A stretch of DNA of 64,000 nucleotides from Cladocopium goreaui (taxonomy: Eukaryota > Sar > Dinophyceae > Suessiales > Symbiodiniaceae). The DNA is taken from assembly GCA_947184155.2 (NCBI GenBank), contig CAMXCT020006575.1, forward strand, positions 124,001-188,000, written 5' to 3'. Shown in pieces: positions 26,655 through 62,501 of this stretch. The notes beneath the pieces were generated by a model. The model saw nothing but the letters and a program-made list of their open reading frames with translations, ran no database searches and was not told the origin of the DNA. A program made the position numbers and the translations under genes. Position 1 is the stretch's first letter; each line of letters opens with the position of its first letter.

Positions 26655-26809
26655 ATAAACGAAGCTGTCAAGACCAGAATCAATCGCTCGAAACGAGCAA
26701 AAAAACTGCTGGCAGCTTGAAAAAAATGAAAGAGCAGTAACTTGTGTGCTTTTGGGAGGTGCAGGTATGCAGCTGCTTCATATGGCGCGACCCCGGAATG
26801 TTAAGCCAG

Positions 26810-27098
26810 GTCAGAGGATAGACGCCAACCAGCCATTGCTTTGTGCGTTTTCGAAGCCCGGACCTCTCGGAAAGTGGAGTACTATGCGCAGTCCATTTCT
26901 CGACATTTTTTTACGGAGCTATCTGAGTTTTGGGATGGAGGCAAACTCCGAAAGCTTCAGCAGGACGTGGAAGAAAACATCCGATTCATTGCCAAGACTT
27001 TCTCCAACCGGACGAACTCTTCCTTGCCTGAACGATTCAATGTCATTCACGAAGTGCAGGTCGATCTTGCGGAAGATAAGACAACAAATGTTACATAG
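26810..27098 (+). CDS. Unassigned exon candidate
   Basis: After a CCAGG acceptor-like site the frame reads ALCVFEARTSRKVEYYAQSI and then a helical charged segment to ERFNVIHEVQVDLAEDKT. Composition is protein-like and the strand matches the NO VEIN-like exons upstream, so it may be a later exon of that gene with the composite repeat in the intervening intron. No motif identifies it. Confidence 0.35.
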
Positions 27099-27163
27099 TT
27101 ACATATAGTTACTAAGACCATGCACGTCCCTAGAAACCCGCAATACAACATGCATATCTGTGA

Positions 27164-28078: not shown

Positions 28079-28592
28079 TACATGAAATTTCCTGTCCCGA
28101 TGTCGAAATTTAATGTGCCAAGTCATACACGAAACGCAATGAAAAACATGTGTTTTTGTCATCCCAAGTTAGTTTCAGACGCTGTCATCTTCAACACTGA
28201 AATGAATGAATGATATGTTAACAATGAATCCATGATGATCTGTCAAAAAACCAACATGAAAGTGCAACCATCTGCAAAACCTTAGATCCAAGTTCAACAA
28301 AAACGTCATGCTCACCTGGCAGCAAAAGACGCGCGGGTTTCTATGGACGTGCAGCCTAAGAATGCTGGTTGAAATTCGTGAGTATTTTTGGCAGGCTTTG
28401 GATGTCGCTACACACGAGGTTTGGTTTCGAATTTTCGCCGTGTGTGCAAACATGAGTTTAGATTGGAGGCACCTGCAGGTACAAGGTTGTTTCATGTTAT
28501 TTCTAGATACACCGTAGGAATTTGAGTGTGATTCCTGTATGAACAAATTGATGTCCAGCTAAACCAAGTTTCCACTTTGTTGTGACCTTTCG
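28079..28592. other. Intergenic or intronic stretch
   Basis: A short open segment at 28,308-28,500 reads RMLVEIREYFWQALDVATHE and could be a small exon. Otherwise nothing recognisable. Confidence 0.25.
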
Positions 28593-35200: not shown

Positions 35201-37070
35201 TGTCTCCCACTTGTCTCCCACACTTGTTTCCCACACTTGTCTCGCACTCTGGGCGCCTTGGGCCGCATGAGTTTACACTTGTCTCCCACACTTGTCTTCC
35301 ACACTTGTCTCCCACTCTGGGTGCCTTGGGCCGCATGAGTTTACACTTGTCTCCCACACATATGTCCCACACTTGTCTCCCACTCTGGGTGCCTTGGGCC
35401 GCATGAGTTTACACTTGTCTTCCACTTGTCTGCCGCACTTGTCTCCCACTCTGGGTGCCTTGGGCCGCATCATTTTACACTTGTCTCCCGCTTGTCCCTC
35501 ACACTCTGGTTTCCTTGGGCTGCATGAGTTTACACTTGTCTCCCACTTGTCTCCCACACTTGTCTTTCACTCTGGGTGCCTTGGGCCGCATGATTTTACA
35601 CTTGTCTCCCACTTGTCTCCCACACTTGTCTCCCACACTTGTCTCCCACTCTGGGTGCCTTGGGCCGCATGAGTTTGCACTTGTCTCCCACTTGTCTCCC
35701 ACACTTGTCTCCCACACTTGTCTCCCACTCTGGTGGCCTTGGGCCGCATGAGTTTACACTTGTCTCTCACTTGTCCCCCACACTTGTCTCCCACTCTGGG
35801 TTCTTTGGGCTGCATGAGCCTACACTTGTCTCCCACACTTGTCTTCCACACTTATCTCTCACTCTGGGTGCCTTGGGCCGCATGATTTTACTCTTGTCTT
35901 CCACCTGTCTCCCACACTTGTCTTTCACTCTGGGTGCCTTGGGCCGCATGATTTTACACTTGTCCCCCACTTGTCTTTCACACTTGTCTCGCACTCTGGG
36001 TGCCTTGGGCCACATGATTTTACACTTGTCTTCCACTTGTCTCCCACACTTGTCTTTCACTCTGGGTGTCTTGGGCCACATGAGTTTACACTTGTCTTCC
36101 ACTTATCTCTCACACTTGTCTCCCAGTCTGGGTGCCTTGGGCCGCATGAGTTTACACTTGTCTTCCACTTGTCTCCCACACTTGTCTTCCACTCCGGGTG
36201 TCTTGGGTTGTCTCCCACACTTGTCTCCCACTCTGGGTGCCTTGGGCCGCATGAGTTTACACTTGTCTTCCACTTGTCTCCCACACTTGTCTTTCACTCT
36301 GGGTGTCTTGGGTCGCATGATTTTCACACTTGTCTCCCGCTTGTCTCCAACACTTGTCTCTCACACTTGTCCCCCACTCTGGGTGCCTTGGGCCGCATGA
36401 GTTTACACTTGTCTTCCACTTGTCTCCCACACTTGTTTCCCACACTTGTGTTCCACACTTGTCTCCCACGCTTGTCTCCCACACTTGTCTGCCACTCTGG
36501 GTTTCTTGGGCCGCATGAGTTTACACTTGTCTCCCCCTTGTCTCCCACACTTCTCTCCCACTCTGGGTGCCTTGGGCCGCATGAGTTTACACTTGTCTCC
36601 CACTTGTCTCCCACACTTGTCTCCCACTCTGGGTGCCTTGGGCCGCATGAGTTTACACTTGTCCCTCACTTGTCCCTCACACTTGGGTGCCTTGGGCCGC
36701 ATGAGTTTACACTTGTCTTCCACTTGTCTCCCACACTTGTCTTTCACTCTGGGTGCCTTGGGCCGCATGATTTTACACTTGCCTCCCACTTGTTTCCCAC
36801 ACATGTCTCCCACTCTGGATGCCTTGGAGCGCATGAGTTTACACTTGTCTCCCACTTGTCTCCCTCACTTGTCTCCCACACTTGTCTTCCACACTTGTCT
36901 CCCACACTTGTCTCCCACACTTGTCTCCCACTCTGGGTTCCTTGGGCCGCATGAGTTTACACTTGTCTCCCCCTTGTCTCCCACACTTGTCTCCCACCCT
37001 GGGTTCCTTGATTCGCATGGACAGTATAATTTAAAATTTCTACATCTGTTTGGGGTCAACGCTGGTATAA
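32232..37070 (+). repeat. Satellite-bearing element, copy 1 (order X-L-array-R)
   Basis: Unique block X (32,232-32,326, CCCCTGCCAGGTGAGGATC to GGGCTGAACACA) abuts block L (32,329-32,371, CAGGTTTACCTGTATGGGG to AAGGGTTGC). Then comes the array (32,372-37,011) and block R (37,012-37,070, ATTCGCATGG to ACGCTGGTATAA). Array units have a 66-bp core (GTGCCTTGGGCCGCATGAG plus TTTACACTTGTCTCCCAC) expanded by extra ACTTGTCTCCCAC 13-mers to 79, 92 bp and more. Open frames on both strands (His/Pro/Leu/Ser-rich plus, Lys/Gly/Cys-rich minus) are repeat artefacts. Confidence 0.9.
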
Positions 37071-38480
37071 CATGTGATATCTCTTCAAAATTTCATGAAA
37101 TCTCTATGACTCTATGACTTTTGAGTCCGCCGGGTGCCGTTTGACCCTGACAAGTTCTTTTTTCCTTTATGTTGAGTGGATCATCCAAGTAGAGCCGTAG
37201 ACCACCAGCCTCCCAAGCACTGCTTGGGGCAGCCGGTTGAAGCATGGCAATAGTGGCCCACAGTGTTTCATCTCATCCCTTCTTATTTTAAGCACACCCT
37301 AAATGGATTGATATACCTTGATCACCTTGAAATGTTAGGCCAGTGGCTTCATGGATCAATGGAGTCTGCTCAGACCGTAGCATGTGGTGCCAGACAATGC
37401 AAACCATTCAAGAACACTGAAGAATGGCCACCAGTGAAGATTTGTCAATGGGACGAGATCAGCGAAACCTGCTGCAAGGAACCTGCTGAACCACCGAACA
37501 AAAGGCTGTCACAGGGAGCTTGGTTTGTGTTACGGGTGGATGTCCATAACATAGAAATCTGATGAAATATGATGAACTATGCAAGTGAGGTCGGCCTGTC
37601 CATGAATGCATCAATCGGAGAGAAACCGAGCTAGTGACTTGGGTCTACCCAAGGTGGTAGGGTAGGAGATGGGTGGGTGAGTGGGTGGGTGGGGGGGTTA
37701 TCAACGTTCATGTTCACATGGTCACATGCTTCATGTCTTGATTGATGCATCGTTGACAAGATCTTCTCCTGCACTTAGCTACATTGACAATATCTTCTTT
37801 TGCATTTGCTAACTATCTCGATGCTACGTCAACAAGATCATCTCGTGCACTTAGCTACGTCAACAAGATCTTCTCTTGCACTTAGGTAGGTATCTTGATG
37901 CTATGTTAACGGCCAGTCTGAGTTCCAAGTCACCACAAATTGAACCTGGGGAACGGAGATTCACGCACTCTCATGCCTCCAACCTTTTTTTAATTGCAGG
38001 AAACAAACTGAAGTGGCTGAGGTGAAGAAGTAAACAAGATTTCGCGCAAGTGCGAATGTCAAAAACTGAGGCGAAACAGCATGTTTCAATAAATGGCATG
38101 GTTTTTTTGACCCCCAAAATGTGATTTTTTTTCCGGAGAATTCACAGGCAAAATCCAGAACACACTGTACTTGCGTGCGTTTTTAGCTCTCCAAAATGTC
38201 TAAAATTCTGCAAATGCCACTTTTCCAAAGTTGATGAAGTCACAAAATCGCAACGACTACACGTTCAGTTCCCGACCCAGGGGGAAGTTTTTGCTAGACC
38301 CGTGCTATGAATTTTTTAGCGCAACCGATGGCAGACAGCAGACCTGTCCAAAACGGGTACTAAGGTAAATGTTGAATGACGGGCAAAAAGGCGATGTAAG
38401 TACGCGGTGGTGGTCCTTGACATGCGCACAATAGATCGTAGATGGTTAGAACCTTTGTCAGGATCCCTGAGAATGATGGT
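37071..38480. other. Mostly non-coding; partial G-rich repeat at 37,660-37,900
   Basis: At 37,660-37,900 a GGGTGGGTGAGTGGGTGGG head is followed by TCAACGTTCATG and three degenerate units ending GATCTTCTCTTGCACTTAG. This is a diverged relative of the 27.2-kb minisatellite. At 37,263-37,562 there is a possible exon containing EWPPVKICQWDEISETCCKE, not assignable. The rest shows nothing I can name. Confidence 0.4.
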
Positions 38481-38539
38481 AGTTGAAGGTTGTTTTGACG
38501 CTCACTTGTTCTGTTGCGCAAGGAGGCTCAATGGAACAT

Positions 38540-38875
38540 TTTTTGTTTTCCGTGGCCAAGATGAATGCATGCAATATTTGCTTTGGTGTGTCTTCTGATT
38601 GCGAGCTTGGTGTTCCGCAGTGTTGCACGCGTGAGAAAGTGGATTTCCGCATTTGCCAAAACTGCTTCGTGAAGGTGAGTTTGTGCATTGCGGCTGGAAG
38701 GTTCGGTGTTTGCTTGTTGTGTTTACCTAGGTTTTGAAATGCCGTGCAGAGGGGGTGTCTCTCAGTGCCCGCACTGCCGGAAGCGCTGGAACGCCCTTCC
38801 TGGGCGGCGGGCTGCAAGGAGGTTCACTGGCGACTTGGACGAGCTTTTAGCCGACCTTGTTGCCAGCCAGTGGAC
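38540..38875 (+). CDS. RING-finger-like protein, two exons (tentative)
   Basis: The first exon (to about 38,673) encodes KMNACNICFG, a CC pair and FRICQNCFVK, then GTGAGT. After about 56 bp ending CCTAG the next segment encodes PCRGGVSQCPHCRKRW and an Arg-rich helix ending near LDELLADL. Together these give C-x2-C, CC, C-x2-C and C-P-x-C with spacing like an atypical RING/zinc ribbon, which would suggest an E3 ubiquitin ligase or another zinc-binding role. Joining at the canonical GT/AG does not keep the C-P-x-C frame, so the border is shifted or irregular. Confidence 0.45.
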
Positions 38876-38879
38876 CGTT

Positions 38880-39015
38880 CTGCTGTTGCCTTTGCCTGTT
38901 GCTTGGCCTCTTGCTTGGTCTGTTGCTTGGCCTGTTGCTTGGCCTGTTTCTTGGCCTGTTCCTTGGCCTGTTGCTTGGCCAGTGGCTTTGCCAGTGGCTT
39001 TGCCTGTTGCCTGTT
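38880..39015 (+). repeat. 12-bp tandem repeat (CCTGTTGCTTGG)n
   Basis: About ten degenerate copies directly downstream of the RING-like exon, probably intronic. Confidence 0.85.
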
Positions 39016-39535
39016 TGGGTTTGGCACCTGTGGCGGTTGCTCTGGGTGTTGCTCTTGTTGTTCTGGTCCTTGGCTGCTGTTTGTTTGAGTTATTGGTGGA
39101 ATTTTTCTTGGCCAGGCAATTGCAGATGGTGGCCAGGATCAACGTGTTTGCTGCTGTTTTCTAAAGTTTATACATTTATACACCTTCGCGATTCCTTTCG
39201 CCAGGAACTCACCATGAAGAGGACTTGCCTGAGGACGCTGTCTGCGTTGATCAGGCGCGCTTGTGCATGAATTTGTTTGGTTGTCGCTCATCATTTGTTG
39301 TGCTGCGTTTATGAGAATCTTACAGCCACAGACCAAGACCGGACCGAGGATTTTTTCGTGTTGTTTTTCATGTTTTTTCCTGTTTTATATCATTCTCCGA
39401 TAATATGAGATTGTCATTTTCATTTCTTTCATTCTCCAATCATGTGCAAGTGTCATTCTGATTTGTTTATCGTGTTTCCTTCATGTGCAATTAAAATCAA
39501 TTAATTATCATGTTCATACTTGTTTTTTCCCCAAG
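39016..39535. other. AT-rich spacer
   Basis: Possible small exon text near 39,190-39,270; two related CATTCTCC-A-AT phrases near 39,390-39,440. Nothing else recognised. Confidence 0.3.
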
Positions 39536-42284
39536 CAGGTTTACCTGTATGGGGTTCTTACTCCTTTCAAAGGGTTGCATCCCTGGGCCGCATGATTTTG
39601 CCTCTGTCTCCGGGCTTGCATCCCACTCTGGGTGCCTTGGGCCGCATGAGTTTACACCTGTCTTCCACTTGTCTTTCACACTTGTCTGCCACTCTGGGTG
39701 CCTTGGGCCGCATGAGTTTACAGTTTACACTTGTATCCCACACCCGCCTCCCACACTTGTCTTTCACACTTGTATCGCACTCTGGGTGCCTTTGGCCGCA
39801 TGAGTTTACACTTGTCTCCCACTTGTCTCCCACACTTGTCTCCCACACTTGTCTCCCACACTTGTCTCCCACACTTGTCTCCCACTCTGGGTGCCTTGGG
39901 CCGCACACTTGTCTCCCGCACTTGTCTCCCACACTTGTCCCACTCTGGGTGCCTTGGGCCGCATGAGTTTACACTTGTCTCCTACTCTTGTCTTCCACAC
40001 TTGTCTCCCACTCTGGGTGTCTGGGGCCGCATGAGTTTACACTTGTCTCCCAGAGTTGTCTCCGACTCTGGTGCCTTGGGCCGCATGAGTTTACACTTGT
40101 CTTCCATTTGTCTCCCACACTTGTCTCCCACCCTGGCTGCCTTGGGCCGCATGAGTTTACACTTGTCTCCCACACTTGTCTCCCACACTTGTCTCCCACT
40201 CTGGATGTCTGGGTGCGCATGAGTTTGCACTTGTCTCCCACTTGTTTCCCACTTGTCTCCCACACTTGTCTCCCACTCCTGATGCCTTGGGCCGCATGAG
40301 TTTACACTTGTCTCCCACTTGTCTCCCACACTTGTCTCGCACTCTGGGTGCCTTGGACTGCATGAGTTTACACTTGTCTTCCATTTGTCTCCCACACTTG
40401 TCTCCCACTCAAGGTGCCTTGGGCCGCATGAGTTTACACTTGTCTCCCACTTGTCTTCCGCGCTTGTCTCCCACTCTGGGTGCCTTGGGCCGAATGATTT
40501 TACACTTGTCTCCCAGTTGTGCCTCACACTTGGATGCCTTGGGCCGCATGAGTTTACACTTGTCTTCCACTTGTCTCCCACACTTGTCTCCCACTCTGGG
40601 TGCCTTGGGCCGCATGAGTTTGCACTTGTCTCCCACTTGTCCCTTGGGCCGTATGAGTTTACACTTGTCTCCTACACTTGTCTTCCACACTTGTCTCCCA
40701 CTCTGGGTGCCTTGGGCCACATGAGTTTATACTTGTCTCCCCCTTGTCTCCCACACTTGTCTCACACTCGGGGTTTCTTGGGCTGCATGAGTTTACACTT
40801 GTCTTCCACTTGTCTCCCACACTTGTCTTTCACTCTGGGTGTCTTGGGCCGCATGAATTTAAACTTATCTCGCACTTGTCTCCCACACTTGTCTCCCACA
40901 CTTGTCTTCCACACTTGTCTCCCACACTTACCCTAGTCTCCCACACTTGTCTCCCACTCTGGGTGCCTTGGGCCGCATGAGTTTACACTTGTCTTCCACT
41001 TGTCTCCCCACTTGTCGCTCACTCTGGGTGCCTTGGGCCGCATGATTTTACACTTGTCTCCCACTTGTTTCCCACTTGTCTCCCACACTTGTCTCCCACT
41101 CCTGATGCCTTGGGCCGCATGAGTTTACACTTGTCTCCCACTTGTCTCCCACACTTGTCTCGCACTCTGGGTGCCTTGGACTGCATGAGTTTACACTTGT
41201 CTTCCATTTGTCTCCCACACTTGTCTCCCACTCAAGGTGCCTTGGGCCGCATGAGTTTACACTTGTCTCCCACTTGTCTTCCGCGCTTGTCTCCCACTCT
41301 GGGTGCCTTGGGCCGAATGATTTTACACTTGTCTCCCAGTTGTGCCTCACACTTGGATGCCTTGGGCCGCATGAGTTTACACTTGTCTTCCACTTGTCTC
41401 CCACACTTGTCTCCCACTCTGGGTGCCTTGGGCCGCATGAGTTTGCACTTGTCTCCCACTTGTCCCTTGGGCCGTATGAGTTTACACTTGTCTCCTACAC
41501 TTGTCTTCCACACTTGTCTCCCACTCTGGGTGCCTTGGGCCACATGAGTTTATACTTGTCTCCCCCTTGTCTCCCACACTTGTCTCACACTCGGGGTTTC
41601 TTGGGCTGCATGAGTTTACACTTGTCTTCCACTTGTCTCCCACACTTGTCTTTCACTCTGGGTGTCTTGGGCCGCATGAATTTAAACTTATCTCGCACTT
41701 GTCTCCCACACTTGTCTCCCACACTTGTCTTCCACACTTGTCTCCCACACTTACCCTAGTCTCCCACACTTGTCTCCCACTCTGGGTGCCTTGGGCCGCA
41801 TGAGTTTACACTTGTCTTCCACTTGTCTCCCCACTTGTCGCTCACTCTGGGTGCCTTGGGCCGCATGATTTTACACTTGTCTCCCACTTGTTTCCCACAC
41901 GTATCTCCCACTCTGGATGTCTTGGAGCGCATGAGTTTACACTTGTCTCCCACTTGTCTCCCACACTTGTCTCCCACTCTGGGTTCTTTGGGCTGAGTTT
42001 ACACTTGTCTCCCACTTGTCTCCCACACTTGTCTCCCACTCTGGGTTCTTTGGGCTGAATTTACACTTGTCTCCCATTTGTCTCCCACACTTGTCTCCCA
42101 CACTTGTCTCCCACTCTGGGTTCCTTGGTTCGCATGTACAATATAATTGAACATTTCTACATCTGTTTGGGGTCAACGCTGGTATAATTTTCCCCTGCCA
42201 GGTGAGGATCTCAACTTCTGATATCACAGGTGCAACTCCCAAAGGTGCGAACTCATGGCGAGCTTCAGCTCCGGGCTGAACACA
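39536..42284 (+). repeat. Satellite-bearing element, copy 2 (order L-array-R-X)
   Basis: Block L (39,536-39,578), the 66/79-bp-type array (39,579-42,128), block R (42,129-42,186) and, directly after R, block X (42,189-42,284). Blocks L, R and X are near-identical to those of copy 1, but X is on the other side. The array contains an 823-bp tandem duplication. Open frames are artefacts. Confidence 0.9.
40229..41874 (+). repeat. 823-bp tandem duplication inside the satellite array
   Basis: Sequence from about 40,229 to 41,051 is repeated at about 41,052 to 41,874 with an 823-bp offset. Variant units (CTCCTGATGCC, GGACTGCATGAG, TACCCTAGTCTCC) recur in the same order, and I saw no difference between copies. 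This is recent compared with the diverged units around it. Confidence 0.88.
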
Positions 42285-48850: not shown

Positions 48851-49502
48851 ACAGTTTTGAGAATACGTGACACCAAAACGAAAAATATTGCTACTGTTTT
48901 ATCTAGGAATAAAGGTGTTTGTTTAACTTCTACAGTGACCGCATAATTTATCATCGACTTTTTAGTGTGACGATGACAAGCACGTTTGTTTTTGTTTGTT
49001 TGCAACAGCAAAAACACTTGTTATATATATATATATATACAGAAGATTACAGAAGCATGTGTGTAGATTGTGTATAGTAGATTTTTCTTCTTAATTTAGT
49101 TGTGACCTGCCACAGGCCTGAATGACAGGTGCAAACTACTACCATAACAACAGCACTACGACATATTATTTCTTGGTAATTGTGATATTCACAGATTGGT
49201 TTGAGAGCGGTATTCATGCTCTGTTTTTTACGAAAGCCAGCCGGGAAGCTGGTTAGTTGTTATTTGCGAACGAAGTGAGAATAGGGGGTCTGGGGGGGGG
49301 GGTAGTTGCCAAACGGTCAAAAATGGCGGAAATAGGTGGTGTTTTAGTTCCGGGCAAAGTATGGTTTTGCAGGGTAATGTACCAGGCGGCAAAACAGTGA
49401 CGGTGGCTATCGATTCCCCCTAGGTCCGGTTTTCTGGGGTTTTCTGGGCTCAGTCAATGGACAGATAGATGGGCCAGCTAGTTAGAGGAGATTGGAGAGA
49501 GA
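48851..49502. other. Non-coding stretch with (TA)n and poly-G
   Basis: A (TA)n run at 49,022-49,039 and an 11-G run near 49,292. No gene seen. Confidence 0.5.
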
Positions 49503-51127
49503 AGGACATTGGGTGAAAAGTGTGTGCAAGAACTGGGTGAAGAGTCTCTGGGTGAAAAGTATATGGGTGAAAAGCATATGGGTCAAAAGTATGTACAAGA
49601 AGAGTTTCTGGGTGAAGAGTCTCTGGGTGAAAAGTGTATGGGTGAAAAGTATGTGCAAGAAGAGTTTCTGGGTGAAGAGTCTCTGGGTGAAAAGTCTGTG
49701 CAAAAAGAGTTTCTGGGTGAAGAGTCTCTGGGTGAAAAGTATATGGGTGAAAAGTATGTGCAAGAAGAGTTTCTGGGTGAAGAGTCTCTGGGTGAAAAGT
49801 ATATGGGTGAAAAGTATGTGCGAGAAGAGTTTCTGGGTGAAGATCTGGGTGAAAAGTATATGGGTGAAAAGTATGTGCAAGAAGAGTTTCTGGGTGAAGA
49901 GTCTCTGGATGAAAAGGGTGAAAAGTATGTGCAAGAAGAGTTTCTGGGTGAAGAGTCTCTGGGTGAAAAGTATATGGTTGAAAAGTCTGTGCAAGAAGAG
50001 TTTCTGGGTGAAGAGTCTCTGGGTGAAAAGTATATGGGTGAAAAGTATGTGCAAGAAGAGTTTCTGGGTGAAGAGTCTCTGGGTGAAAAGTATATGGGTG
50101 AAAAGTATGTGCAAGAAGAGTTTCTGGGTGAAGAGTCCCTGGGTGAAAAGTATATGGGTGAAAAATATGTGCAAGAAGAGTTTCTGGGTGAAGAGTCTCT
50201 GGGTGAAAAGTATATGGGTGAAAAGTATGTGCAAGAAGAGTTTCTGGGTGAAGAGTCTCTGGGTGAAAAGTATATGGGTGAAAAGCATGTGCAAGAAGAG
50301 TTTCTAGGTGAAAAGTATGTGCAAGAAGAGTTTCTGGGTGAAGCGTCTCTGGGTGAAAAGTATATGGGTGACAAGTATGTGCAAGAAGAGTTTCTGGGTG
50401 AAGAGTCTCTGGATGAAAAGTATATGGGTGAAAAGTATGTGCAAGAAGAGTTTCTGGGTGAAGAGTCTCTGGGTGAAAAGTGTATTGGTGAAAAGTCTGT
50501 GCAAGAAGAGTTTCTGGGTGAAGAGTCTCTGGGTGAAAAATCTGTGCAAAAAGAGTTTCTGGGTGAAGAGTCTCTGGGTGAAAAGTATATGGGTGAAAAG
50601 TATGTGCAAGAAGAGTTTCTGGGTGAAGAGTCTCTGGGTGAAAAGATGTGAAAAGTATATGGGTGAAAAGTATGTGCAAGAAGAGTCTCTAGGTGAAAAG
50701 TATATGGGTGAAAAGTATGTGCAAGAAGAGTTTCTGGGTGAAGAGTCTCTGGGTGAAAAGTATATGGGTGAAAAGTATGTGCAAGAAGAGTTTCTGGGTG
50801 AAGAGTCTCTGGGTAAAAAGTATATGGGTGAAAAGTATGTGCAAGAAGAGTCTCTGGGTGAAAAGTATATGGGTGAAAAGTATGTGCAAGAAGGATTTCT
50901 GGGTGAAGAGTCTTTGGGTGAAAAGTATATGGGTGAAAAGTATGTGCAAGAAGAGTTTCTGGGTGAAGAGTCTCTGGGTGAAAAGAATATGGGTGAAAAG
51001 TATGTGCAAGAAGAGTTTCTGGGTGAAAAGCAATAAGAGTTTCTGGGTGAAGAGGTGAAAAGTATATGGGTGAAAAGTATGTGCCAGAAGGGTTTCTGGG
51101 TGAAGAGTCTCTGGGTGAAACATATTA
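49503..51127 (+). repeat. 60-bp hierarchical minisatellite built from four 15-bp monomers (~27 units)
   Basis: The unit is GTTTCTGGGTGAAGA, GTCTCTGGGTGAAAA, GTATATGGGTGAAAA, GTATGTGCAAGAAGA. Some units lose or duplicate monomers, always in 15-bp steps at first, so frames stay open for hundreds of codons on both strands (up to 380 plus, 409 minus). Codon content is fixed by the repeat, and no flanking coding sequence or initiation context supports translation. Confidence 0.93.
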
Positions 51128-52860
51128 GGGAACATAGGGATAGATGGGATGCTGGCTTTCGTTCCCCCCTTCTCAGGTGTTGTTTTCGCTTCAACTTGAA
51201 ACACGTGACATGATTTTAGAGCGTGCTTCACGTCCAGCTGTGACTGAATTTTCAGATTGCCTGGCAGGCGCTGTTAGTCGGCGCACTGAGTTGGACTAGG
51301 CGCCGGCCCGAACGTTGAGAACGTCACGAAAAAAATTGGGTTTCCATAATTCTTGGGGGATGAGCTTTTCCTTGTTTTGCGCATGGGGAATGCCACTTGA
51401 ATCTAGAATTGCCTCAGTTCAGCTATTTCATTTGCATTTGGATTCGTTGCATTTTCTTCACGGGTAGGCTGCTCACTCCAGCCATTGGTTTCTTGTTATA
51501 GTCTTTGCAAGGAGAGTCCGGAAGCAGCATCCATGGTGAGGGTCAACGACAACTGCGACCGTCAACCAACAGATATCTGAAAATCAGATCGGCTATTGAT
51601 CCACCACCTAATTACAAGCTATCGAACTTTGCGACGTGAAGATAGGAGCGTGATGGAGCGTGACATGTGACATTGCGGGATCTCTCGGTCGGAACTTTGC
51701 AGGATTTATTCATCGTGAATCATGTCAGAGTCATCATGAAAACCATGGAATTGTTGCTTTCATCGTCAGCGACTGTTGGGCAATCTAGAAGATTCAGCGA
51801 TACTTTTATACAATTTTATCCCACGGTATGGCCGAATGATTGTGGAAAGGGCAGCTGTACGAAGCGAGACGAAACGCATTGCAATATATCCAAGCTGTAG
51901 GGATCTCTCAATTTGTCAAAACATGCCGGAAATTTCAGCTCCACGTCCTCAGATGGATTTCATCATGTGTTTTTTCCTGGATGAAAAACACATGTCAAGT
52001 CGGTTGCCAGGCGATGGAGCCAAGTTCAGCGAGGCAGCCGAAATCAGCCGAAGTGGAGTTGAAGAAAGACAATAGAAATACTGGCGTCAAGGGAGCATTT
52101 GCACGGAGGTTTCGGTTTTTCGTTGTTTTTGTGTGGTTTGACTTTGAGGCCTTTAAACAAGTTGAGAAAAAGTGATTGGAACTGGGTCCACTGGGTCCAC
52201 CTATGCAACATGTACCTGGTAGGTAGTCCAATTTGGTGATCGGAAATCCTTCTTTTGGAGCTGACTTTCCTGTACTGAAAATTGAGTTTTCATTGCCAGG
52301 TTTGATTGCTGGAGGGCATACTAAGAAGTTCAAAGTTCACTGTTTACCTTTTCACAGTGTGGTTTGAGTCGTGACACCACTTGTCCGTTGCCCCCACTTG
52401 GCGTTGCAACCTTGTCCGGTACCACCCGGCAGCATGGACAAGGTGCATCTTGCCACCATGATGCATGCCATCTGAGGACGCCACCTCGTTGTTGCACTAT
52501 GTTGGAACAGAGTTGTTAGAAGGATCCTTTAGGATCCTTTAGGGTTCGGCAAAACGAAGTTGATCCACGATATGCATTAGGCTTGATTTGGCTTGACAGC
52601 GGCAGGACTTCCCTGCAGAGGTCCTGGAAGCTCGGAAACCAAGAGTTGAGACGTGTGGGTCATGTTTACTGTGTTGGTTCTTTTGCAGGTGTTGCAGATT
52701 GTCTCCGCTTCTCAAGACGGACCTGTACCACAGCATTCGGTGACACTCACCTCGACATGAAACGGCCAGCCAAGCACATTGAGAACAAAGCAGCCAAATC
52801 TCATGTTGCGTAAGAGAAAGTGAGAAAGTATTTGATAAACCATGGACAAATCTGTGTATT
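51128..52860. other. Stretch upstream of the receptor gene with weak exon candidates
   Basis: 51,775-51,900 reads NLEDSAILLYNFIPRYGRMI then VERAAVRSETKRIA, coding-like. 52,680-52,805 reads DMKRPAKHIENKAAKSH. Both may be upstream exons of the receptor gene but show no domain. A GGATCCTTTA tandem lies near 52,520-52,545. Confidence 0.3.
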
Positions 52861-53648
52861 GTTACAGACTGCACTGAATTCGTGCCGCTGGACAGCGCAA
52901 AGGACTCGCTGCCTCATGTCGGTTTCTGTGGATGTTCCTGGACATGGCAATTTCGATATCGCACTGACTTCTTCGAGCACCGCTGCTGACATGATTTTTC
53001 TTCTACGTGAGCGTTTGCCAGACAGCCCATGGCATGGGAACAAGGTGCTTTCAAGTGGGGTCTGCCAGCTGCAGTGCGATGACATTGTGGAGGCAACCCA
53101 CCACAGCACCTTGGTCTTGGCAAACTACTCAGAGATCACCAACCAGGAGACACACCTGCCTCTTTGTTCCTTTTTTTTGGCAAAAAGGCGATATAACCCC
53201 AATAGGATCAAATAGAATAAAGAGAAAGTGTATTTAGAAGTCAATCTTTTGAATTTCAGAGATTGCAGGCCCATTATTCCACCTTCGCTACTGCATAATG
53301 CTTCAATTGAATTCCATTCCAATTTCATTTGCTGCATTTGTTGGTCGCCCCACACACGTCGAAGGAGACTTTCTGCATCAAAGATACTGCAGAGCGAGGC
53401 ATCACTCGCGAGCAATTGGCAAAGATCGTTGTTTTCATCTCCAAGATGGCTGACAGATGGTGCGAGACTTTCGGAGAACAGCGTGGGACAAGGCTGCAGT
53501 TTGAGACCTTCAATTTGTATCATGCGAATCATTGGATCATCAAACCAGCCACCGAAGCCTGGATTTGTTGATGATGTGACAACATTTTCCAATTTGAAGA
53601 ATCTACCGTTTTTCTTTTTTTAATTGGCAACATTATGCAGAATCCCAG

Positions 53649-54202
53649 GACGGCTATGCGAAAAAGGGCTGCAGCATGGTTGAGATCATGGCGATTCAAG
53701 TGCAGAGACCTCACTGGTTTGTGTCACATGCTTGGATTGAGCCTTGGATAGGCAAATTCTCAAGGTTGTTTGAGACCGTGCTATTGCATTGTCTGTCAGC
53801 AACAAGTTTCTTTTTCCGCTAATAATTCACATTCCCCTAGAAGCCTTGGTTGAGTTTTGGACTTGTTCATTTCGGACCCTCAATAGGATGCTGTATCAAA
53901 AAGAAATGAACATCGAGCGTAATGATAGATGAAAGTCAATCCATTGCTTTGAAGCACGTCCAATTTTGTGTTGGGCAGATCTGTGAGGAGCCTGTTTGTA
54001 AGTTTCTGGCCTGCTTGGAGCAGCATGCTCTGGTGCGAGAACTCTCAAGCAGTACATTCTATTGGGTCTGTGCATATGCCAATAACCAGCACTGCGTGGA
54101 AGAGGATATCAAAAGCAACCCACGCAGCACTTCATTCTACAGAGCTATGCAGATGTCTGAGGGAGTTCTTTTGGTGCTGGATTCAGCTGGAACGCCTTTC
54201 GA
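53649..54202 (+). CDS. TIR-like module, 5' part (two exons)
   Basis: Exon 53,649-53,741 encodes CSMVEIMAIQVQRPHWFVSH and AWIE. Exon 53,991-54,202 encodes PVCKFLACLEQHALVREL, YWVCAYANNQH, SFYRAM and GVLLVLDSAGTPF. TIR domains start with a buried F-[IV]-S box and end near a W-C-x2-E box holding the NADase Glu. Here FVSHAW serves as the first box, and W-C-C-F-E lies beyond the LINE at about 56,160. The intron between the exons (about 249 bp) is flanked by the direct repeat GAGCCT. TIR homology is inference from spacing and these boxes. Confidence 0.5.
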
Positions 54203-55961
54203 TCGCACCGGTTTTAAACGGCAGGAACCAAGGATTTCTTTGGCTATTTATTTGGACGATCGCACCATGTGGAAACAAGGTTGTCAAAGTTTTGAAGTGG
54301 TCATCAACGCCATGACTGCGGGAGCGCAAGCCGATGCTATTCTCGGCTTCGAACTTCACCCTGACAAATTGGCTAGCTTCGCCACCAAACCGCATCTGGT
54401 TGCCAAGGTGCGCAAGAAGAAAGATTTAGTAGGTGTACCTGCGGATACTTTCACACTGCTTGGCATTCAATACAATTTGTCACGCCCCAGTTCTTGTGTT
54501 GATGCGGATATTGTCAGTGACAACATTCAGCGACGATGTCTCAAAATTCGTTTGGCAGCACAGCACTTAGGCACTCGCATTGCATTGGTGCATAAGTTGG
54601 TGATATCTTTATTTGCTTGGTCCGGTGCTTTTCATCACTTCAGTGCAAGAACCATTCGAACATGGACATCTATGATCGAAACTGCACTTTGGGGTCGAAG
54701 GGCTCCTCCAGGTAGGAGCCGGCTGCTCTTTTGGAATTCTTTGGGTTCTGCAAGACTACATCCGATGTTTGCGCTCCAGTTCACCGCCGCCCGGGCGGAA
54801 TGGAATCGGCAATGCCGCCGTGCCCAAGGGTTGCCTGCAGCTACCTCGCCTGCTCCTCGCTGGAAAGCAGTGCTCAAAGATTGGAAATGGCGACTTGACG
54901 AGGGCCTGTGGCACACGCCTGCTGGGATTTTGAAACCTGGGTGGATGTCTTTGAAAAGCTTGCAAAAAGCCGCTATCCATTCATGGCTCGTTGGTTTGTG
55001 GACTAAAGACACCAAAACGGATGGTCGATGGCCAAACGGCAAGGAGCCGGTTTTCCTTTTTCAGGCAAATGCAGCTTTAGGCATGGATTACTACAGTCGC
55101 AGGGTTTTGACTGGTGCTGCAGTGGATGGCAGGGTCACAGAGCGCTTTGGTTCTGCTTTGAGTTGTGAATGTGGATTGCGGTCTCCTGATCGAGAACATC
55201 TCACTTTTCACTGCCAAGCGCAGCCATGGGATGGTGAGTTCAGGAGCGCTACTGAACGTCGTTTGCTGGTTCCACTTGTGGATGCTCCTCCTGTGTTGCC
55301 TTTTTCCAACATGGTTGCAGATCCTGCTTTGGTTACTTTTATTCAGCAATTCGATCCTCTTCAGCGACCCACCTTGGGTTTGGACGGCAGTTGTATCATA
55401 GCTACTTCCTGTGATCGATGGCAAAGAGCTAGCTGGGCGGTTTCGACACTTTCAGGCACCACTGTTCAAGGTGCCGTGACTGGTTTTGAGCAAACACCTG
55501 CTGCAGGTGAGCGTGCTGCTCTTCTGCAAGCTTGTTTAGCCTCTTCTGCAGCTAACAGACCGGTGATGCTCTTGATTGACAATCAGGCTTTGGTGCGGCG
55601 GCTTCAGCGAGGCATTAGCACTGGCCGTTGGGAGGGTGACTTGCCGCTTTTCTGGCAGCGGATCAGCGGCTTATTGATTCAGGGCACTGTTTGCACTTGG
55701 ATCCCTTCTCACAACAAGGTGCCTGACTGGACACCACCAGATGGTTGGATTGATGTTCATCTCTGCCGCGTTCTCAATGCGACAGCCGATGCTCAGGCAG
55801 GTGAGGTGTTGCGTGACTCACGCTCCATGATCGCTGCGGCTGTGCAGCGACATCAGCGAGCCGTGGCTTGGGCTGCAGCAGTTTGGCGTCTGCAGAGGCT
55901 ACGGACTTTACCTTTTTGGCAAGTCGTACTTGATCAACAAACATTCCTTGCGGAATGCTAG
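53922..55961 (+). CDS. Chimeric ORF: receptor exon fused in frame to LINE RT/RNase H
   Basis: An uninterrupted 679-codon frame. About the first 23 codons are intronic. Residues 24-93 are TIR-like host sequence, and the rest is LINE pol: motif C YLDD, connection, zinc-knuckle-like segment, and RNase H with GLDGS (Asp), AAGERAA (Glu), LLIDNQ (Asp), PSHNK (His) and ATADAQA (Asp). The RT lacks motifs A and B so cannot polymerise. The RNase H set looks complete. Fusion is in frame by chance or has been tolerated; expression is unknown. Confidence 0.7.
   Translation: MIDESQSIALKHVQFCVGQICEEPVCKFLACLEQHALVRELSSSTFYWVCAYANNQHCVEEDIKSNPRSTSFYRAMQMSEGVLLVLDSAGTPFDRTGFKRQEPRISLAIYLDDRTMWKQGCQSFEVVINAMTAGAQADAILGFELHPDKLASFATKPHLVAKVRKKKDLVGVPADTFTLLGIQYNLSRPSSCVDADIVSDNIQRRCLKIRLAAQHLGTRIALVHKLVISLFAWSGAFHHFSARTIRTWTSMIETALWGRRAPPGRSRLLFWNSLGSARLHPMFALQFTAARAEWNRQCRRAQGLPAATSPAPRWKAVLKDWKWRLDEGLWHTPAGILKPGWMSLKSLQKAAIHSWLVGLWTKDTKTDGRWPNGKEPVFLFQANAALGMDYYSRRVLTGAAVDGRVTERFGSALSCECGLRSPDREHLTFHCQAQPWDGEFRSATERRLLVPLVDAPPVLPFSNMVADPALVTFIQQFDPLQRPTLGLDGSCIIATSCDRWQRASWAVSTLSGTTVQGAVTGFEQTPAAGERAALLQACLASSAANRPVMLLIDNQALVRRLQRGISTGRWEGDLPLFWQRISGLLIQGTVCTWIPSHNKVPDWTPPDGWIDVHLCRVLNATADAQAGEVLRDSRSMIAAAVQRHQRAVAWAAAVWRLQRLRTLPFWQVVLDQQTFLAEC
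54190..54202 (+). repeat. Target-site duplication, left copy
   Basis: GAACGCCTTTCGA, identical to 56,141-56,153 on the other side of the LINE. Both copies are in the same codon phase of the host exon (…T-P-F…). Confidence 0.92.
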
Positions 55962-56140
55962 CTGGCGCACTGTGTTTACTTCTTTTTTTCAGGCAGGTTT
56001 CGCTTCCTTTGAGTTTTGCTTGGAGAAGTATGGGAACTTGATTCTCGCAGATGGCATACTATGGCGTCTTAACTACTTCACTTCGGTGAGGAGCAGGTTG
56101 ACGTCCGCTTACAACAACAACAACAACAACAACAACAACA
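54203..56140 (+). mobile_element. 5'-truncated LINE inserted in the receptor exon
   Basis: A 1,938-bp insert between 13-bp duplications. It begins just before RT motif C (IYLDD, Asp pair at 54,255-54,260), contains the RT thumb, a C-x-C-G…H…H-C zinc-knuckle-like motif (CECGLRSPDREHLTFHC) and a C-terminal RNase H, and stops at 55,961. A 150-bp 3' UTR and an (AAC)n tail (56,111-56,140, about ten copies) follow. Truncated 5' end, simple-repeat tail and target duplication are the signature of target-primed reverse transcription. It is a different lineage from the left-edge LINE, because its RNase H follows the RT. Confidence 0.93.
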
Positions 56141-56240
56141 GAACGCCTTTCGAAAGGATTTGGTGCTGCTTCGAGGAAGCCATGGCCACAGCCTTAGAAA
56201 TTCCTAGAAGTGCGAGAAAGCATCATAGAACGAGAAAAAG
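56141..56240 (+). CDS. TIR-like module, 3' part after the LINE
   Basis: Begins with the second target-site copy and resumes the host frame as TPFERIWCCFEEAMATALE. This holds the W-C-x2-E box expected to carry the catalytic Glu in an active TIR NADase. The exon probably ends soon after; the open frame stops at about 56,244. Confidence 0.5.
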
Positions 56241-56769
56241 GTGACATGAACGTGAGTTTTTTTCGTTTGTGAGTTCTGCCTGAAGGGACACGTTTTGATT
56301 TGTCCAGCTAGCAGCTAGCTTGTTTCAGTGCAAAATGCGATTTGCATACATGTGAATGGGGTATAACGAGCAGGAGCAACACCAGGTCATGTTCGTAAAG
56401 GCAGGCAATGCTTCAGTAGATAGTGGATCGAAGGAGACACTGGTGAAAACACACCGGTATTTTCACCCTAAAAGCGACGAAGGCGATCGAACATCGAGAG
56501 GGCAACTGGTCCAGACGACGTTTACTGCTTGATGTGGGAGCCACTGACGCATATGACAAAGCTACTCGACACAGAAGGGGTGGCCTTGTGTGGACATTTC
56601 CTTTGCGTGGTCTGCTCGAAAGGTTGAGACCATCACCTTTACCGTAACCACCATTTCTGCACCATTGTGAACCTTTTCACATCACCTTACTGTAAGCATC
56701 CCTTTCCATATATCTTTACAAAGAGGTGATAAGTGATAAGTGATGTTTTGACCCTTCCAAACTTGTTGA

Positions 56770-56916
56770 TCTCTGAGGCTCACGTGCTTACTGATGGACT
56801 TGCTGGAGCAGAAAGTCGAATGATTGGCATCATCGGGCTGCACCATAAAGCAGCTCGTGAGCGTCACTTTCCTCTTGGCCTTTTGGAAAAGGGCTTGAAG
56901 GTCAAAATTGAAGAAG
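56770..56916 (+). CDS. Linker exon of the receptor gene
   Basis: Encodes AHVLTDGLAGAES, then RERHFPLGLLEKGLKVKIEE. Its 3' end joins the next exon at GAAGCT, a 6-bp direct repeat bounding a ~235-bp intron (56,913-56,918 and 57,148-57,153). The joined text reads KIEEAHATQNIDKVRILNSI, which supports the splice. Confidence 0.5.
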
Positions 56917-57151
56917 CTTGGTGCGGGATTGCAAGAAACCTCTACTGTTTTGACGTTGTTTGGAGAACCATTTTATGAATTTGGACGATCGATTGAATGG
57001 ACAAGGTCCATGGTCCATTGTTCATATTGTTCCATTTTCATTGTATGTATGTCACCTCGCAAAAATGGCTCATTCTAATTTAAGTTCTCTCTTTTTCCAG
57101 AAGGTGTCCGAGCCATAATCGTGAGTTTGAATGTTGGACAGCTCAAGGAAG

Positions 57152-58705
57152 CTCATGCCACGCAGAACATCGACAAAGTTCGTATACTGAACAGCATAGC
57201 TCTTTCTCGTCTTGGAACTTGCGACTTTGAGCTTTTGCAGTCGTACCCCAAGGGGGATCCGAATTTCCAGCGAGTAGATGAAGCTCTTGCTTCGCACTTC
57301 GCCTTATCCAGCTGGTACGGATTTGTCCTTCAAGGAAGATGCACTGAACTCCTGGCCACAGCTCTAAAGGCAGACGTTGGTAGAAAGATAGTGCAGCTTT
57401 CACTGACTGGATGCCGGAATTTCTCTGACCATGAGCTTAATGTGCTGATCGAAAGCCTTCCTGCAGAGTTGCGTGTTTTGCGATTAGATCTGGGATTCTC
57501 GGGTCTTGAGACTCTGGACATGTTCACATCGACGGTGCAGTGTTTGAAGTCTTTGGTCCAGTTGAAGTTGCGCTTCACAGGTTCCTCGCACTTCAGGACT
57601 GCGGCAGGGCTTGGAGTTGCCCTGAGAGAGATGGAGAGCCTCATGTACTTGGAGCTATGGTGCGCTGAGTTGTGAAATTCAAGTCACATTTTTCTTCATC
57701 TTGAACCAGCAAAAAAATGTGATTTTCAGCATATTGTTTGCTGCGCTGACTGCGCTTTCTTTTTGTTTCCATGGAAATGATCGTGTTTTTTTTGATTTTT
57801 CTCAGCTGCCACGGTCCAGTGGCTGCAGGTTCATGAACTTGCCATGTTTGGAAGAATTCGGATGCTTCAGTTCTGCTTTGCAGTCTTCGCGAAACCTGGA
57901 GAGTATAGTTATTGATCTCAGTGGATGCGGCCAGGTGTCGATTGATGCGAGGATGGAACTCCACCAATCCATCAAGTCACTGAAATGGTTGCGAGGCAGC
58001 TTGGACACTTGGGTGAACATTGAAGGTTTACCAAATCGAAGCTGGTTCTCTCGATTTGCTCATGTTGATTTTGGCGGTGTTATCAAAGCGCGTTGCACCC
58101 GGGGCTTCCGTTTCATCTGGCAACGGATGCGACAACTCAGCAGTGCCCGCCACCTACCACATGTCAGCTCAGTGTACTTTGAGCCAACAAGGTTTGGCAG
58201 GTCCAGCGCCACAGATGAATCAGCTGCAGAAGATGCAGAGACAGAGACTCACAGCGCTCAACAGGAGATGTTTGATGAAGGCAAACCGTTCCCATGCAGC
58301 CATCCTTCGTGTCATTCTTTTCACTCTTCTGAGAGCGGTTATTGCGAAAGGCACCACTGGGTGGGCCTTGGCAAAAGGATTTGCGTTGCGGTAAATGGTT
58401 GGCGCCAGAATGTGGAGCTTAGTGTGCTGATTCTTGCACAAGCAGTGGCAGAGGTAGAGAGCCGATTTTTGTTGGTTCTACTGGTTCTCAGCCTGTTGCC
58501 CGTTGCAACTTATAGCTTTTCTCAGTCAACAGGAGTGTTTGGCACGGTGATTTTTATGATTGTTATCTCAATTGCAATTGTCAGCATTGTTTACACCACA
58601 GCTCGGCTCAACCGAATGCAAACACTGTCAAAGAAGCTTGAAGTTGAATCGGAAGCTTTGTATGCAAAGAATTTGCAGAATGACATGTCGAGGCTTTTTG
58701 GTGAT
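57152..58705 (+). CDS. LRR-like region and first two membrane segments of the receptor gene
   Basis: Exon 57,152-~57,670 encodes IDKVRILNSIALSR, then LRR-like phrases (IVQLSLTGCRNFSDHELNVL, LRVLRLDLGFSGLETL, LVQLKLRF, LMYLELW). After a short intron the frame resumes at about 57,807 with LPCLEEFGCF and LESIVIDLSGC. At 58,290-58,345 a C-x4-C-x2-F and C-E-R-H-H segment may bind metal. Two hydrophobic helices follow (FLLVLLVLSLLPVATYSF; VFGTVIFMIVISIAIVSIVY). Confidence 0.55.
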
Positions 58706-58708
58706 TAG
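58706..58708 (+). other. In-frame TAG within the receptor exon
   Basis: The frame open from before 57,807 meets TAG here and stays open in the same frame to 60,241 (about 510 further codons). That is best explained by a nonsense mutation in a decaying copy. Readthrough or a sequencing error are alternatives. A 29-nt GT-AG micro-intron at 58,701-58,729 would break the frame. Confidence 0.7.
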
Positions 58709-60296
58709 GGTAGAGCCGATATTGCCCAGCCTCAAGTCACAAGCTTGACGGAACACTTCGTAGAAGCCAGAAAGCATCTTGACCACTTTGACAGGAATCT
58801 GTGCCTCCCACTGCGAGAGTTCTTGGAGGAGCAGCCTGGTTCCATAGCCCGGCAAGATTTGCGGCCCATACTGATGACACTGCCTATGGCACAAGAGGCT
58901 ATCGTGCGAGAAGGTGAACCCGGTCGAATCTTTGATCTCTTGTATTGCGATGTAATCTTCGATGATTGGGAAAGAATGCTCAGTGCGTGGTGCTTCCTGC
59001 AAACGAGAGCAGGGTATGACGAGTTGAGAGAAATCGAGATTGTGCGTACCCGCGATTCTTTTGCTTCAGTCCATGCTGGTGTCAGATGTGCCGAGATGGT
59101 GGTCAAGATCAACGACTATTTAGCCACGATCCGTTTCCTTGAAGCCTCTTTGACAAAGCTGGAAAATCAAGTGGATGATGTGCACCACTTGGCAGAACAG
59201 GCGGGACTTCTGGCAGGCAGTTTGCAGGTAGATCCTTTGCTTATGTCTGGGCGACCAGTACAGCAATCACGATTGGTAGTCGTTGTTGTTGCTTTGCTTC
59301 GGATCAGCTCATTACTTGCAGCAGTGTACATTGGGGGGCAATACTTTGTGCGGTATAGTCCACCTTTCATCCGTTCCAAGCTTCCACAATTGATCCGAGA
59401 TGCATGTGCTCTCAAGCAGACAGTTGATTCTGGAGGATGGTTGGAGGAGAGCCTTTCGCAGCTGTTGCCTTCCATTCTTTTCTCTTTGCCATACCTGGCC
59501 TTGATCATCGTCCTCCTGAGCGACTTGCGCCGGTGTCGGTCAGCCAATCTTAGATTGAAACCGCTGAAGCCAACCCAGCTGCTCTACGAGGAGTATTTTG
59601 GCATTGAAGGCAAGCTCTACGGCTTCAAAGTTGCAATGCTGCAGTTATTCACAGTGATGCTACAGGCCTTTGGAAAGCTCCAAATTATGGGTGGCCTGGT
59701 GTCCTTTGCATTCCATTCAGCTCCGAAGCATTCAGATGCATTCGAAAGATGCTTTTGGACTTTTATGGGTTTCCTATGTTTGAACAGCATCTATCCAAGC
59801 GTTTTGTTGGCCTTCCCCTCGGTGAAGTGGGTGCGCCGGGCCGCTGCGATGATGGATGCGGTTCTTGATATTGCTTACACTACCACATACCTCATCATCA
59901 CCTTGCTGGCCATCTATGAGCTGCAGTTGGACGAAGTCATTTCAGGAAATTTTGGGGATGAGGCTTCGGTAAACTTCCAAGCAGAGTTGGACCCGGCATT
60001 TGCATTCCCAGCCGACTTTTTTGGTTTCTTTGCTGTCTACTATTCACTTGCACATGTTTGCACAGTTTGCCGTGCCCTGGAGCGAAGCGATCGTCTAAAA
60101 TACAAGAAACTGCAAAGCTTACCGAGCTCTTCTTCCCAGTCACTGCTGAGCCCATCGAGATTTTCTTTCTCAAAGAGATATCGGATTTGTTGCAAAGCGT
60201 TGCATTTTTGCTGCATTGGTTTCGTTTTATGTTGTTTCTGAAATTTTCAATCCATCGATCATCGCGGTTTCGCAACCGGTTGACACAGTTTGTCAT
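58709..60296 (+). CDS. Multi-pass membrane region of the receptor gene
   Basis: Starts with a helical linker (FVEARKHLDHFDRNLCLPLR) and then carries about seven membrane segments near 59,275, 59,465, 59,630, 59,760, 59,870, 60,005 and 60,200. The frame used to 60,150 ends shortly after. The natural continuation (FAALVSFYVVSEIFNPSIIA, ending at a canonical GTGAGT at 60,297) is in another frame, so a small intron or a frameshift lies near 60,130-60,170. No channel or transporter signature is recognised. Confidence 0.5.
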
Positions 60297-60799
60297 GTGA
60301 GTATCTCGAAGCCCCTCAACTTGTCAACATATTTGTACAGAGGAGGCGTCTTCTTGTTCTCAGCTTTACTGTACTTGCTGCACCCTTTTGTGCGTCCTAA
60401 AGCATACTAATACACCACTTCTTAAGTTGTTGTTCCCCAACAGCATCAACAGCTTTGCAATCTCAGCCAAGGGGGTTCCAGGGCTTGAGAAAGGGTTCCC
60501 ACTTCTTAGGAGTTTCACAGGTCCAGGATTCCGAGGTGCATTCCAAGTATTTCAGGAGTTCCAGGGATCCAGGATTCTACAGTTGCAAGGTGCTGTTGGT
60601 TGCAAGGTGCTGTCGGGTGGCATACTTCCAGGAGTCCCAGCAAAGGCACTCGAAGTAAAAAAAAATGGATACCTATATGATACCTACATTTTCAATGTCA
60701 ATCCCCTTGAGAGTTGGTTTCTGGAATGGCCCCCTTTCACAACATTGGGCTTTGATGGATGAACTCGAGTCTTTGTTTCTCCTTGCAACCATTGCTCAG
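60297..60799. other. Intron or degenerate spacer
   Basis: Contains a degenerate TTCCAGG-x-TCC tandem near 60,475-60,650. A GCTCAG acceptor-like site ends at 60,799. Confidence 0.4.
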
Positions 60800-62501
60800 G
60801 TATTCACCCTGTTTGCTTGTCACGATCATTGCCCTGCTGCTTTCGTCACACTTCTACCCGATTCACACGGCTGATTTCGGATGCTTTCCGTGCCGCTGTC
60901 ACCAAAAGGATCATGGTGCAAAGCACCTTGCGAGCTGCAGCCTTGTAGGTGTTCTGAGCCTCAAAGATGTGAGTTTGAGCGAACAAAACATCACAAGTGT
61001 TGCAGACGATGCCTTCGCTTCTTCAAGGTGCTTGCAACGGTTGTCGCTCTCTGCGAATAGGTTGCCTGTTTTGCCTAAGGAGCTGTTCGCTCCTTTGGAC
61101 AGCTTGCAATTGCTGGACTTGGGCCGCTTGGGTTTGAAGCAATTAGAGTTTGACACATTTGCTGGGTTGTCAAGTTTGAGAATCTTGTCCCTCAGCCAAA
61201 ATCATTTGAACGCATTGCCAAGAGATTTGCTGCACCCCATGCCAGCTCTGCAGCAATTGTTGCTGGGGGGTAAATCTGATGACAAGGGCCATCGCATCGT
61301 TGATGGAAACGAGCTGAGCGTGCTGTCTCAAGAGCTTTTGCAGCACAGCCCGCGGCTACAAGTTCTCGATCTGAGCGAAAACAAGTTGACCTCGCTGCCA
61401 AATCACATCTTTGATAAGACTCCTTTGCTGCAGGCGCTCGTCCTTGGTTCAAACAAGCTGACTGAGTTGCCGGGCGGAATCTTTTCAGGGCTCAACAACC
61501 TCCAGGAGCTGGACCTGGCTTGGAACAGACTCAGTGAGTTGCCTGCTGGAGTCTTTTCTGGGCTCAGCAGCTTGCAGGAGCTTGTCTTGCATTCCAACAA
61601 GCTCCGTGCGTTGCCTGCTGAAGTGTTTGCAGGGCTCAGCAACTTGCAGGAGCTCAACCTGGGCGAAAACAAGCTCAGCGATTTGCCTGCTAATGTCTTT
61701 TCAGGGCTCACCAACTTGCAGAAGCTTTACTTGTATCAAAACGAGCTCAGTGAGCTGCCTGCTGAAGTCTTTTCAGGACTCAGCAACTTGCAGGAGCTCA
61801 ACCTGGGCGAAAACAAGCTCAGTGAGCTGCCTGCTGAAGTCTTCTCAGGGCTCAGCAGCTTGCAGGAGCTTGTCTTGCATTCCAAGAAGCTCCGTGCATT
61901 GCCTGCTGAAGTGTTTGCAGGGCTCAGCAAATTGCAGAAGCTGTACTTATACTTGAGCCAAAACGCTCTCAGCGAGTTGCCTGCTGCTGCTAATGTCTTT
62001 TCAGGGCTCAGCAGCTTGCAGGAACTGCACCTGGCTCACAGCAAGCTCAGTAAGTTGCCTGCTGAAGTGTGGGCCCATCTCTTCGCAGGTCTTAGCAACT
62101 TGCTAGTTCTCGGCCTGGAGTCCAACAGGCTCGGCGAGTTGTCTTCTAAAGTCTGGTCCAAATCGTTTGCAGAGCTCAGCCACTTGCAGGTGCTTTACTT
62201 GGGCGGAAACGATCTCAGCAAGTTGCATGCTGAAGCCTTTTCCACGCTGGGCAACCTGCGAACACTTGTCCTCGATGGGTGCAGGCTGAACGAGTTGCCT
62301 CTGGAAGTCTGGGGTAGTCTGTTTGCAGCGCTTGACAACTTGCAGTTTCTCTTGCTGCGTGACAACAAACTCGGCGAGTTACCCGCTGAAGTCTGGGCCA
62401 ATATGCTGTCAGAACTCGGCCAGTTGCAGGAGCTTTGGCTGTCCGGCAATGGTCTCAGTGAGTTGCCAGCAATTTGTTCAAAAGTAAAGTGCCACAACTG
62501 A
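60800..62501 (+). CDS. Membrane segment, Cys cluster and LRR ectodomain of the receptor gene
   Basis: After the acceptor the frame encodes a hydrophobic helix (CLLVTIIALLLSSHFYPIH), a Cys cluster (FGCFPCRCH, then ASC), and about eighteen LRRs of mainly 24 residues with the consensus L-P-A-E-V-F-S-G-L-S-x-L-Q-E-L-x-L-x-x-N-K-L. Several repeats are near-identical at DNA level over 72-bp units, so the array has expanded recently. It ends at 62,501 with a short Cys tail. By analogy to Toll-like receptors this would be the ligand-binding ectodomain; that is inference. Confidence 0.75.

Follow-up and report, generated by a model that had tools for sequence, protein, structure and literature searches.

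Results

A LINE resides in the module exon of a receptor-like gene family

The 64,000-nt stretch of the Cladocopium goreaui genome analyzed here (the window; C5934:124001-188000 in a 1.17-Gb genome of 6202 contigs) carries, on its forward strand at 52868..62501, a decayed member of a large family of receptor-like genes that lie in tandem arrays and encode multi-pass membrane proteins. We consider it probable that the family has an N-terminal cytosolic TIR-like module, and that the exon encoding this module is the home site of a target-specific long interspersed nuclear element (LINE) with an apurinic/apyrimidinic (APE)-type endonuclease. In the window, a 5′-truncated LINE flanked by 13-bp target-site duplications splits the module (Table 1). 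Element positions 5711-7627 map to 54216-56131 and are 99.9% identical to a full-length copy, found at locus L058, which measures 7627 bp between its duplications. An unoccupied version of the site is present in L027. ORF1 (ORF, open reading frame) of the full-length copy encodes an OTU-like domain and ORF2 an APE endonuclease and a reverse transcriptase. Assignment to the LINE class follows from matches to RVT_1 (E=1e-18), Exo_endo_phos (E=2e-10) and the LINE-1 ORF2 reverse transcriptase (E=6e-10), together with 5′ truncation, a simple 3′ tail and the target-site duplication. A C-terminal ORF that we label RNase H-like from reading its sequence had no database match. In L058, the host module frame runs open into ORF1 (1297 aa). 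The ORF at 53910-55961, within the span that an earlier sequence-only reading of this DNA had assigned to the receptor, proved by sequence mapping to be mostly LINE and was discarded as receptor sequence.

To describe the target, we sampled the best 40 of 245 candidate LINE 3′ ends. The motif TGGTGYTGYT, which encodes W-C-C in the module, adjoins 28 of the 40, with 15 lying at the family target and 13 more at the motif; three of these 13 (L030, L035 and L052) are not clearly recognizable as modules. Five ends run into the 5′ end of another LINE after a target duplication, L039 and L048 show other LINE sequence after a target duplication, and in L040 only GAA separates the end from the next LINE 5′ end. 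The last four are elsewhere: L029, which is inside a module at a different point, L031, L043 and L053. Counting the 28 ends at the motif and seven in tandem behind a target duplication, most sampled copies are at one target position. We measured the distance from the LINE tail to the motif at 15 junctions, and in 13 it was 18-23 nt. Genome-wide, 85 places fit a LINE end followed by 15-45 nt and TGGTGYTGYT, compared with 158 LINE ends found by a looser pattern; reversed-pattern controls returned 0, and the chance expectation is ~0.002 per end. At loci with other targets, the sequence in L075 and L076 is the TPFTRIWCCFEESIAA of different subfamilies; L071-L074 are not clearly modules. An antisense LINE in L019 (1-3171, oriented), with its 5′ end inside exon E7, is a further off-target copy. 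Two loci have unusual junctions: at the same target, L009 holds a short insert of another kind that also ends in an (AAC)n tail (~1735-1990, oriented), so the site may be used by a second element family as well, and in L015 the LINE follows a complete module copy, by eye as if the target duplication were ~130 bp.

A genome search with the membrane exon, E8, scored 84 of 168 candidates, which is a lower bound, and many of these at least 84 matches share a strand on a small number of contigs. Once a short fragment and five pieces that duplicate a split copy are set aside, 78 copies remain. A LINE end lies no more than 5.5 kb upstream of 55 of them, 17 have an unsplit module and six have neither.

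Insertions at the target are independent

A single insertion, spread by tandem duplication of the gene, would account for a tandem family filled with nearly identical LINE copies. We reject this explanation as very improbable. Using 63 of the 85 LINE-end places, we paired 50 with a left flank: 15 insertions are full length (~7.6 kb), five are longer and 30 are truncated. Because the 30 truncated copies fall into 26 length classes (15-bp bins), and seven loci (the window, L010, L012, L013, L017, L020 and L058) have left junctions at the target that start at different LINE positions, we conclude that the insertions are independent. The same site has also been struck in subfamilies that are only 63-66% identical. 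Furthermore, the LINEs inserted in the paralogues share 97.6-99.9% identity with the full-length copy, whereas synonymous divergence (dS) between the window gene and its paralogues is 0.11-0.25 in E1-E3 and E6-E8; it is only 0.03-0.06 in E4-E5, by the site, and 0.45 in E10.

The paralogues are most alike around the LINE target (window 53940-54200 and 56206-56505). Identity reaches 0.99 just upstream (n=6), and the intron after the target is 0.95-0.98 identical, as opposed to 0.82-0.87 for the one at 56926-57105 (n=18). Gene conversion during repair of cut sites is a possible cause of this peak, and constraint could also explain it.

Table 1. Positions of the gene and LINE features in the window. 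dN/dS, ratio of nonsynonymous to synonymous divergence, and dS were calculated for window versus paralogue, per exon; n, paralogues compared. LRR, leucine-rich repeat.
Feature	Position	Strand	dN/dS (n)	Remarks
E1, N-terminal domain	52916..53135	+	0.34 (2)	41% identity to L054 residues 20-85, E=1.6e-10; ubiquitin-like only as proposed, unproven
E2	53344..53568	+	0.08 (4)	Ends approximate; E=5e-14 to L054 residues 95-155
E3	53640..53742	+	0.08 (5)	FVSHAW, first box of TIR-like module
E4a, first part of E4	53979..54202	+	0.11 (8)	Up to ...LVLDSAGTPF; E=4e-21 to L054
Left target-site duplication	54190..54202	+		GAACGCCTTTCGA; family D9
5′-truncated LINE	54203..56140	+		(AAC)n tail; splits module
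Right target-site duplication	56141..56153	+		GAACGCCTTTCGA; family D9
E4b, second part of E4	56141..56199	+	0.80 (18)	18-codon WCC piece, TPFERIWCCFEEAMATALE; few changes
WCC-coding motif	56161..56170	+		TGGTGCTGCT; TGGTGYTGYT type
E5	56510..56575	+	0.08 (19)	Weak L054 match alone (E=0.024)
E6	56775..56918	+	0.06 (19)	E=7e-10 to L054
E7	57118..57659	+	0.28 (20)	Module family continued, inner LRR-like repeats; first 60 aa match L054-L057
E8	57815..60238	+	0.36 and 0.27 (20)	End of inner LRRs, CxxxxC...CxxH knot, multi-pass core; at least 84 genome matches
In-frame stop in E8	58706..58708	+		Private to window copy among 21 compared; Trp in 20/20 paralogues
E10	60800..62501	+	0.44 (20)	Membrane segment, Cys-rich cap, outer LRR array; Pfam LRR_8 E=4e-87

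Exon order and conservation support one gene

We fetched 20 paralogues, each as a 10-kb stretch, giving 21 copies for comparison with the window included. The exons are open, on the forward strand and in the order that the sequence-only reading had given, and this order holds for every exon detected in each of the 20 paralogues. Changes between the window and its paralogues are mostly synonymous, with dN/dS of 0.06-0.44 in every exon except E4b. E4a has a likely acceptor near 53987, placed by eye. Exons E4b-E10 are present in 19 of the 20 paralogues, the exception being L019, where E4b-E6 were not found and the antisense LINE cuts E7. Upstream exons are seen in fewer paralogues (E4a in eight, E3 in five, E2 in four and E1 in two) because most of these stretches start inside the LINE and cannot show them. 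Two stretches, L009 and L017, contain E4a and no E1-E3 was found in their 10 kb. The full exon set is present in L012 and L027. An ORF piece at 60150-60407 was rejected as an exon, since its dN/dS of 0.92 and stops in paralogues mark it as not coding.

The window copy is broken. E8 contains the stop listed in Table 1 and lacks ~13 codons that the 20 paralogues share, both of which had escaped the sequence-only reading. The paralogue L027 (C5889:328136-338135) has open exons throughout and an unsplit module.

An alternative is that the module exons and the membrane and LRR exons are two neighboring genes. Four single-ORF relatives, L054-L057, align in order with E1 through the start of E7, which places the module and the inner LRR exon in one protein even before transcripts are considered. 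Against the single ORF of L054, the aligned segments from E1 to E7 fall at residues 20-85, 95-155, 161-184, 183-255, 255-268, 286-303, 302-349 and 348-397; as a control, 240 shuffled queries gave three hits at E<0.01. L054-L057 also carry a second, divergent module (FMSWSWQ...RRVWTIYEQY); the two modules of L054 share 24% identity (E=2e-5). The evidence that ties in the outer LRR exon is a conserved AG|GTATTC acceptor, together with collinearity. The two-gene explanation draws on an E8-E10 donor that could not be placed and on an in-frame ATG before E10 in the window, L020 and L023. That ATG is absent from the other 16 of 19 copies, however, E7 runs from the module family into LRRs that E8 continues, and order and strand are the same across the fetched paralogues. 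Together this makes two separate genes improbable.

Protein architecture and the identity of the module

The predicted protein comprises an N-terminal piece, the TIR-like module, inner LRRs, a CxxxxC...CxxH knot, a hydrophobic core, a Cys-rich cap and an outer LRR array. Simple hydropathy counts ~7-8 hydrophobic segments, the last of which opens E10, instead of the ~10 membrane segments first suggested. In the PDB, the outer LRRs are closest to IGFALS, LRRC15 and LGR4/5, with TLR3 ranking lower. Across the 21 copies, the outer LRR ORF is complete in 15 (550-1009 aa), has an early stop in four and runs off the stretch end in two; complete copies have 15-32 LRRs by regular-expression count. Pfam searches gave nothing above cut-off on the exons other than LRR models, leaving the multi-pass core without a match, and nothing above cut-off on the single-ORF relatives. 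A ubiquitin-like domain at the N-terminus, also proposed earlier, found no support: the first exon has no Pfam match and 0 PDB sequence matches, and the model there has a predicted local distance difference test (pLDDT) score below 50.

The proposal of a Toll-like receptor with a TIR domain held up in part. TIR domains top both structural rankings. Foldseek with both structural models gave no match at E <0.001, and none of 31 modules matched a Pfam TIR family at E<=10. A PDB sequence search with module profiles yielded 0 matches, and hhalign against two bacterial-looking TIRs gave a probability below 1%. In a 13-row module alignment, the W and E of a W-x-x-x-E box are invariant; in a 31-row alignment, the Glu is missing from the 90% conservation list. 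This Glu may correspond to the catalytic Glu that TIR NADases carry in the helix after the WC box. The layout of Toll-like receptors, a single pass between an N-terminal LRR ectodomain and a C-terminal TIR, was not found, as the order here is the opposite and there are ~7-8 hydrophobic segments. Within the genome, PF01582 matches only contig C1 (>6.4 Mb), which looks bacterial and has its TIR gene beside an integrase-type ORF.

That the module is a true TIR, acting as an NADase or a scaffold in an algal innate-sensing repertoire as the sequence-only reading proposed, is a serious if tentative possibility: it draws on the structural rankings, the invariant W and E of the smaller alignment and the resemblance of the outer LRRs to IGFALS, LRRC15, LGR4/5 and TLR3, and has the profile, Foldseek and hhalign results to contend with. 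Somewhat more doubtful is a module of another Rossmann-like alpha/beta type whose likeness to TIR is confined to two boxes, in a receptor for, as an example, cell-cell or mating recognition; here the profile searches pose no difficulty and the structural rankings do.

Discussion

A coding gene family as a proposed LINE harbor

For the probable arrangement of a receptor family whose TIR-like module exon is a LINE home site, we hypothesize that in an intact receptor the variable LRR array would most likely lie outside the cell and bind a surface ligand, and that a signal would pass through the membrane core to the N-terminal cytosolic module. Judging by the outcome, the LINE endonuclease would cut ~19 bp upstream of TGGTGYTGYT. 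Target-primed reverse transcription would then start from the (AAC)n end, leaving the short target duplication; the insertion pattern itself is observed. The target codons may be ones that the host cannot easily change. Because of its high copy number and constrained WCC codons, the family could serve as a harbor comparable to ribosomal DNA (rDNA), at the price of a split module in most receptor copies. With less assurance, we lean toward a fuller scenario in which a LINE lineage homes to the WCC codons of the TIR-like module as R2 does to 28S rDNA and switches copies off, in which the target stays uniform through gene conversion driven by the element's cuts, and in which full-length insertions place ORF1 in frame with the receptor N-terminus.

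As described in PMC4640811 and PMC5035012, R1, R2 and other target-specific non-LTR (non-long terminal repeat) retrotransposons likewise insert at a fixed point in a multicopy conserved gene, with target duplications, 5′ truncation and occupied and empty copies side by side. The LINE described here shares an APE endonuclease with the R1 and Tx1 clades. Its target sets it apart, being a coding exon of a protein family instead of RNA genes, transposons, microsatellites or telomeres, and so does the OTU-like domain of its ORF1. PMC4640811 describes target-specific LINEs as surviving through insertion into repetitive RNA genes, into other repeats or into telomeres, and PMC5035012 refers to repetitive sequences. 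LINEs of Symbiodiniaceae are described as old in PMC8045281, whereas this LINE is young. A literature search judged by titles and abstract starts returned no LINE that targets a coding exon and no description of such a receptor type.

Like Toll and Toll-like receptors, members of the family are membrane proteins that combine typical LRRs in an array with a TIR-like module, but the module is N-terminal, the LRRs are C-terminal, the core is multi-pass and there are extra inner LRRs. LGR4/5, which are among the best LRR matches, also place an LRR array on a multi-pass core. LGRs have their LRRs at the N-terminus and a G protein-coupled receptor core; here they sit at the C-terminus, and nothing in Pfam matches the core above cut-off. 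With at least 78 copies, a uniform core and 15-32 outer LRRs, these genes look like a diversified recognition system in a probably single-celled alga. A mobile element homing to a protein-coding gene family would be new. If our reading is correct, a coding gene family of sufficient size can harbor a target-specific LINE, and the element encodes a natural endonuclease with a coding-sequence target.

Elsewhere in the window, a 503-aa ORF at 21563-23074 has no significant Pfam match, the best being Methyltransf_11 at E=0.083, below cut-off. Long low-complexity tandem repeats occupy 25600-28100, 32400-42000 and 49450-51200 and give rise to spurious long ORFs on both strands.
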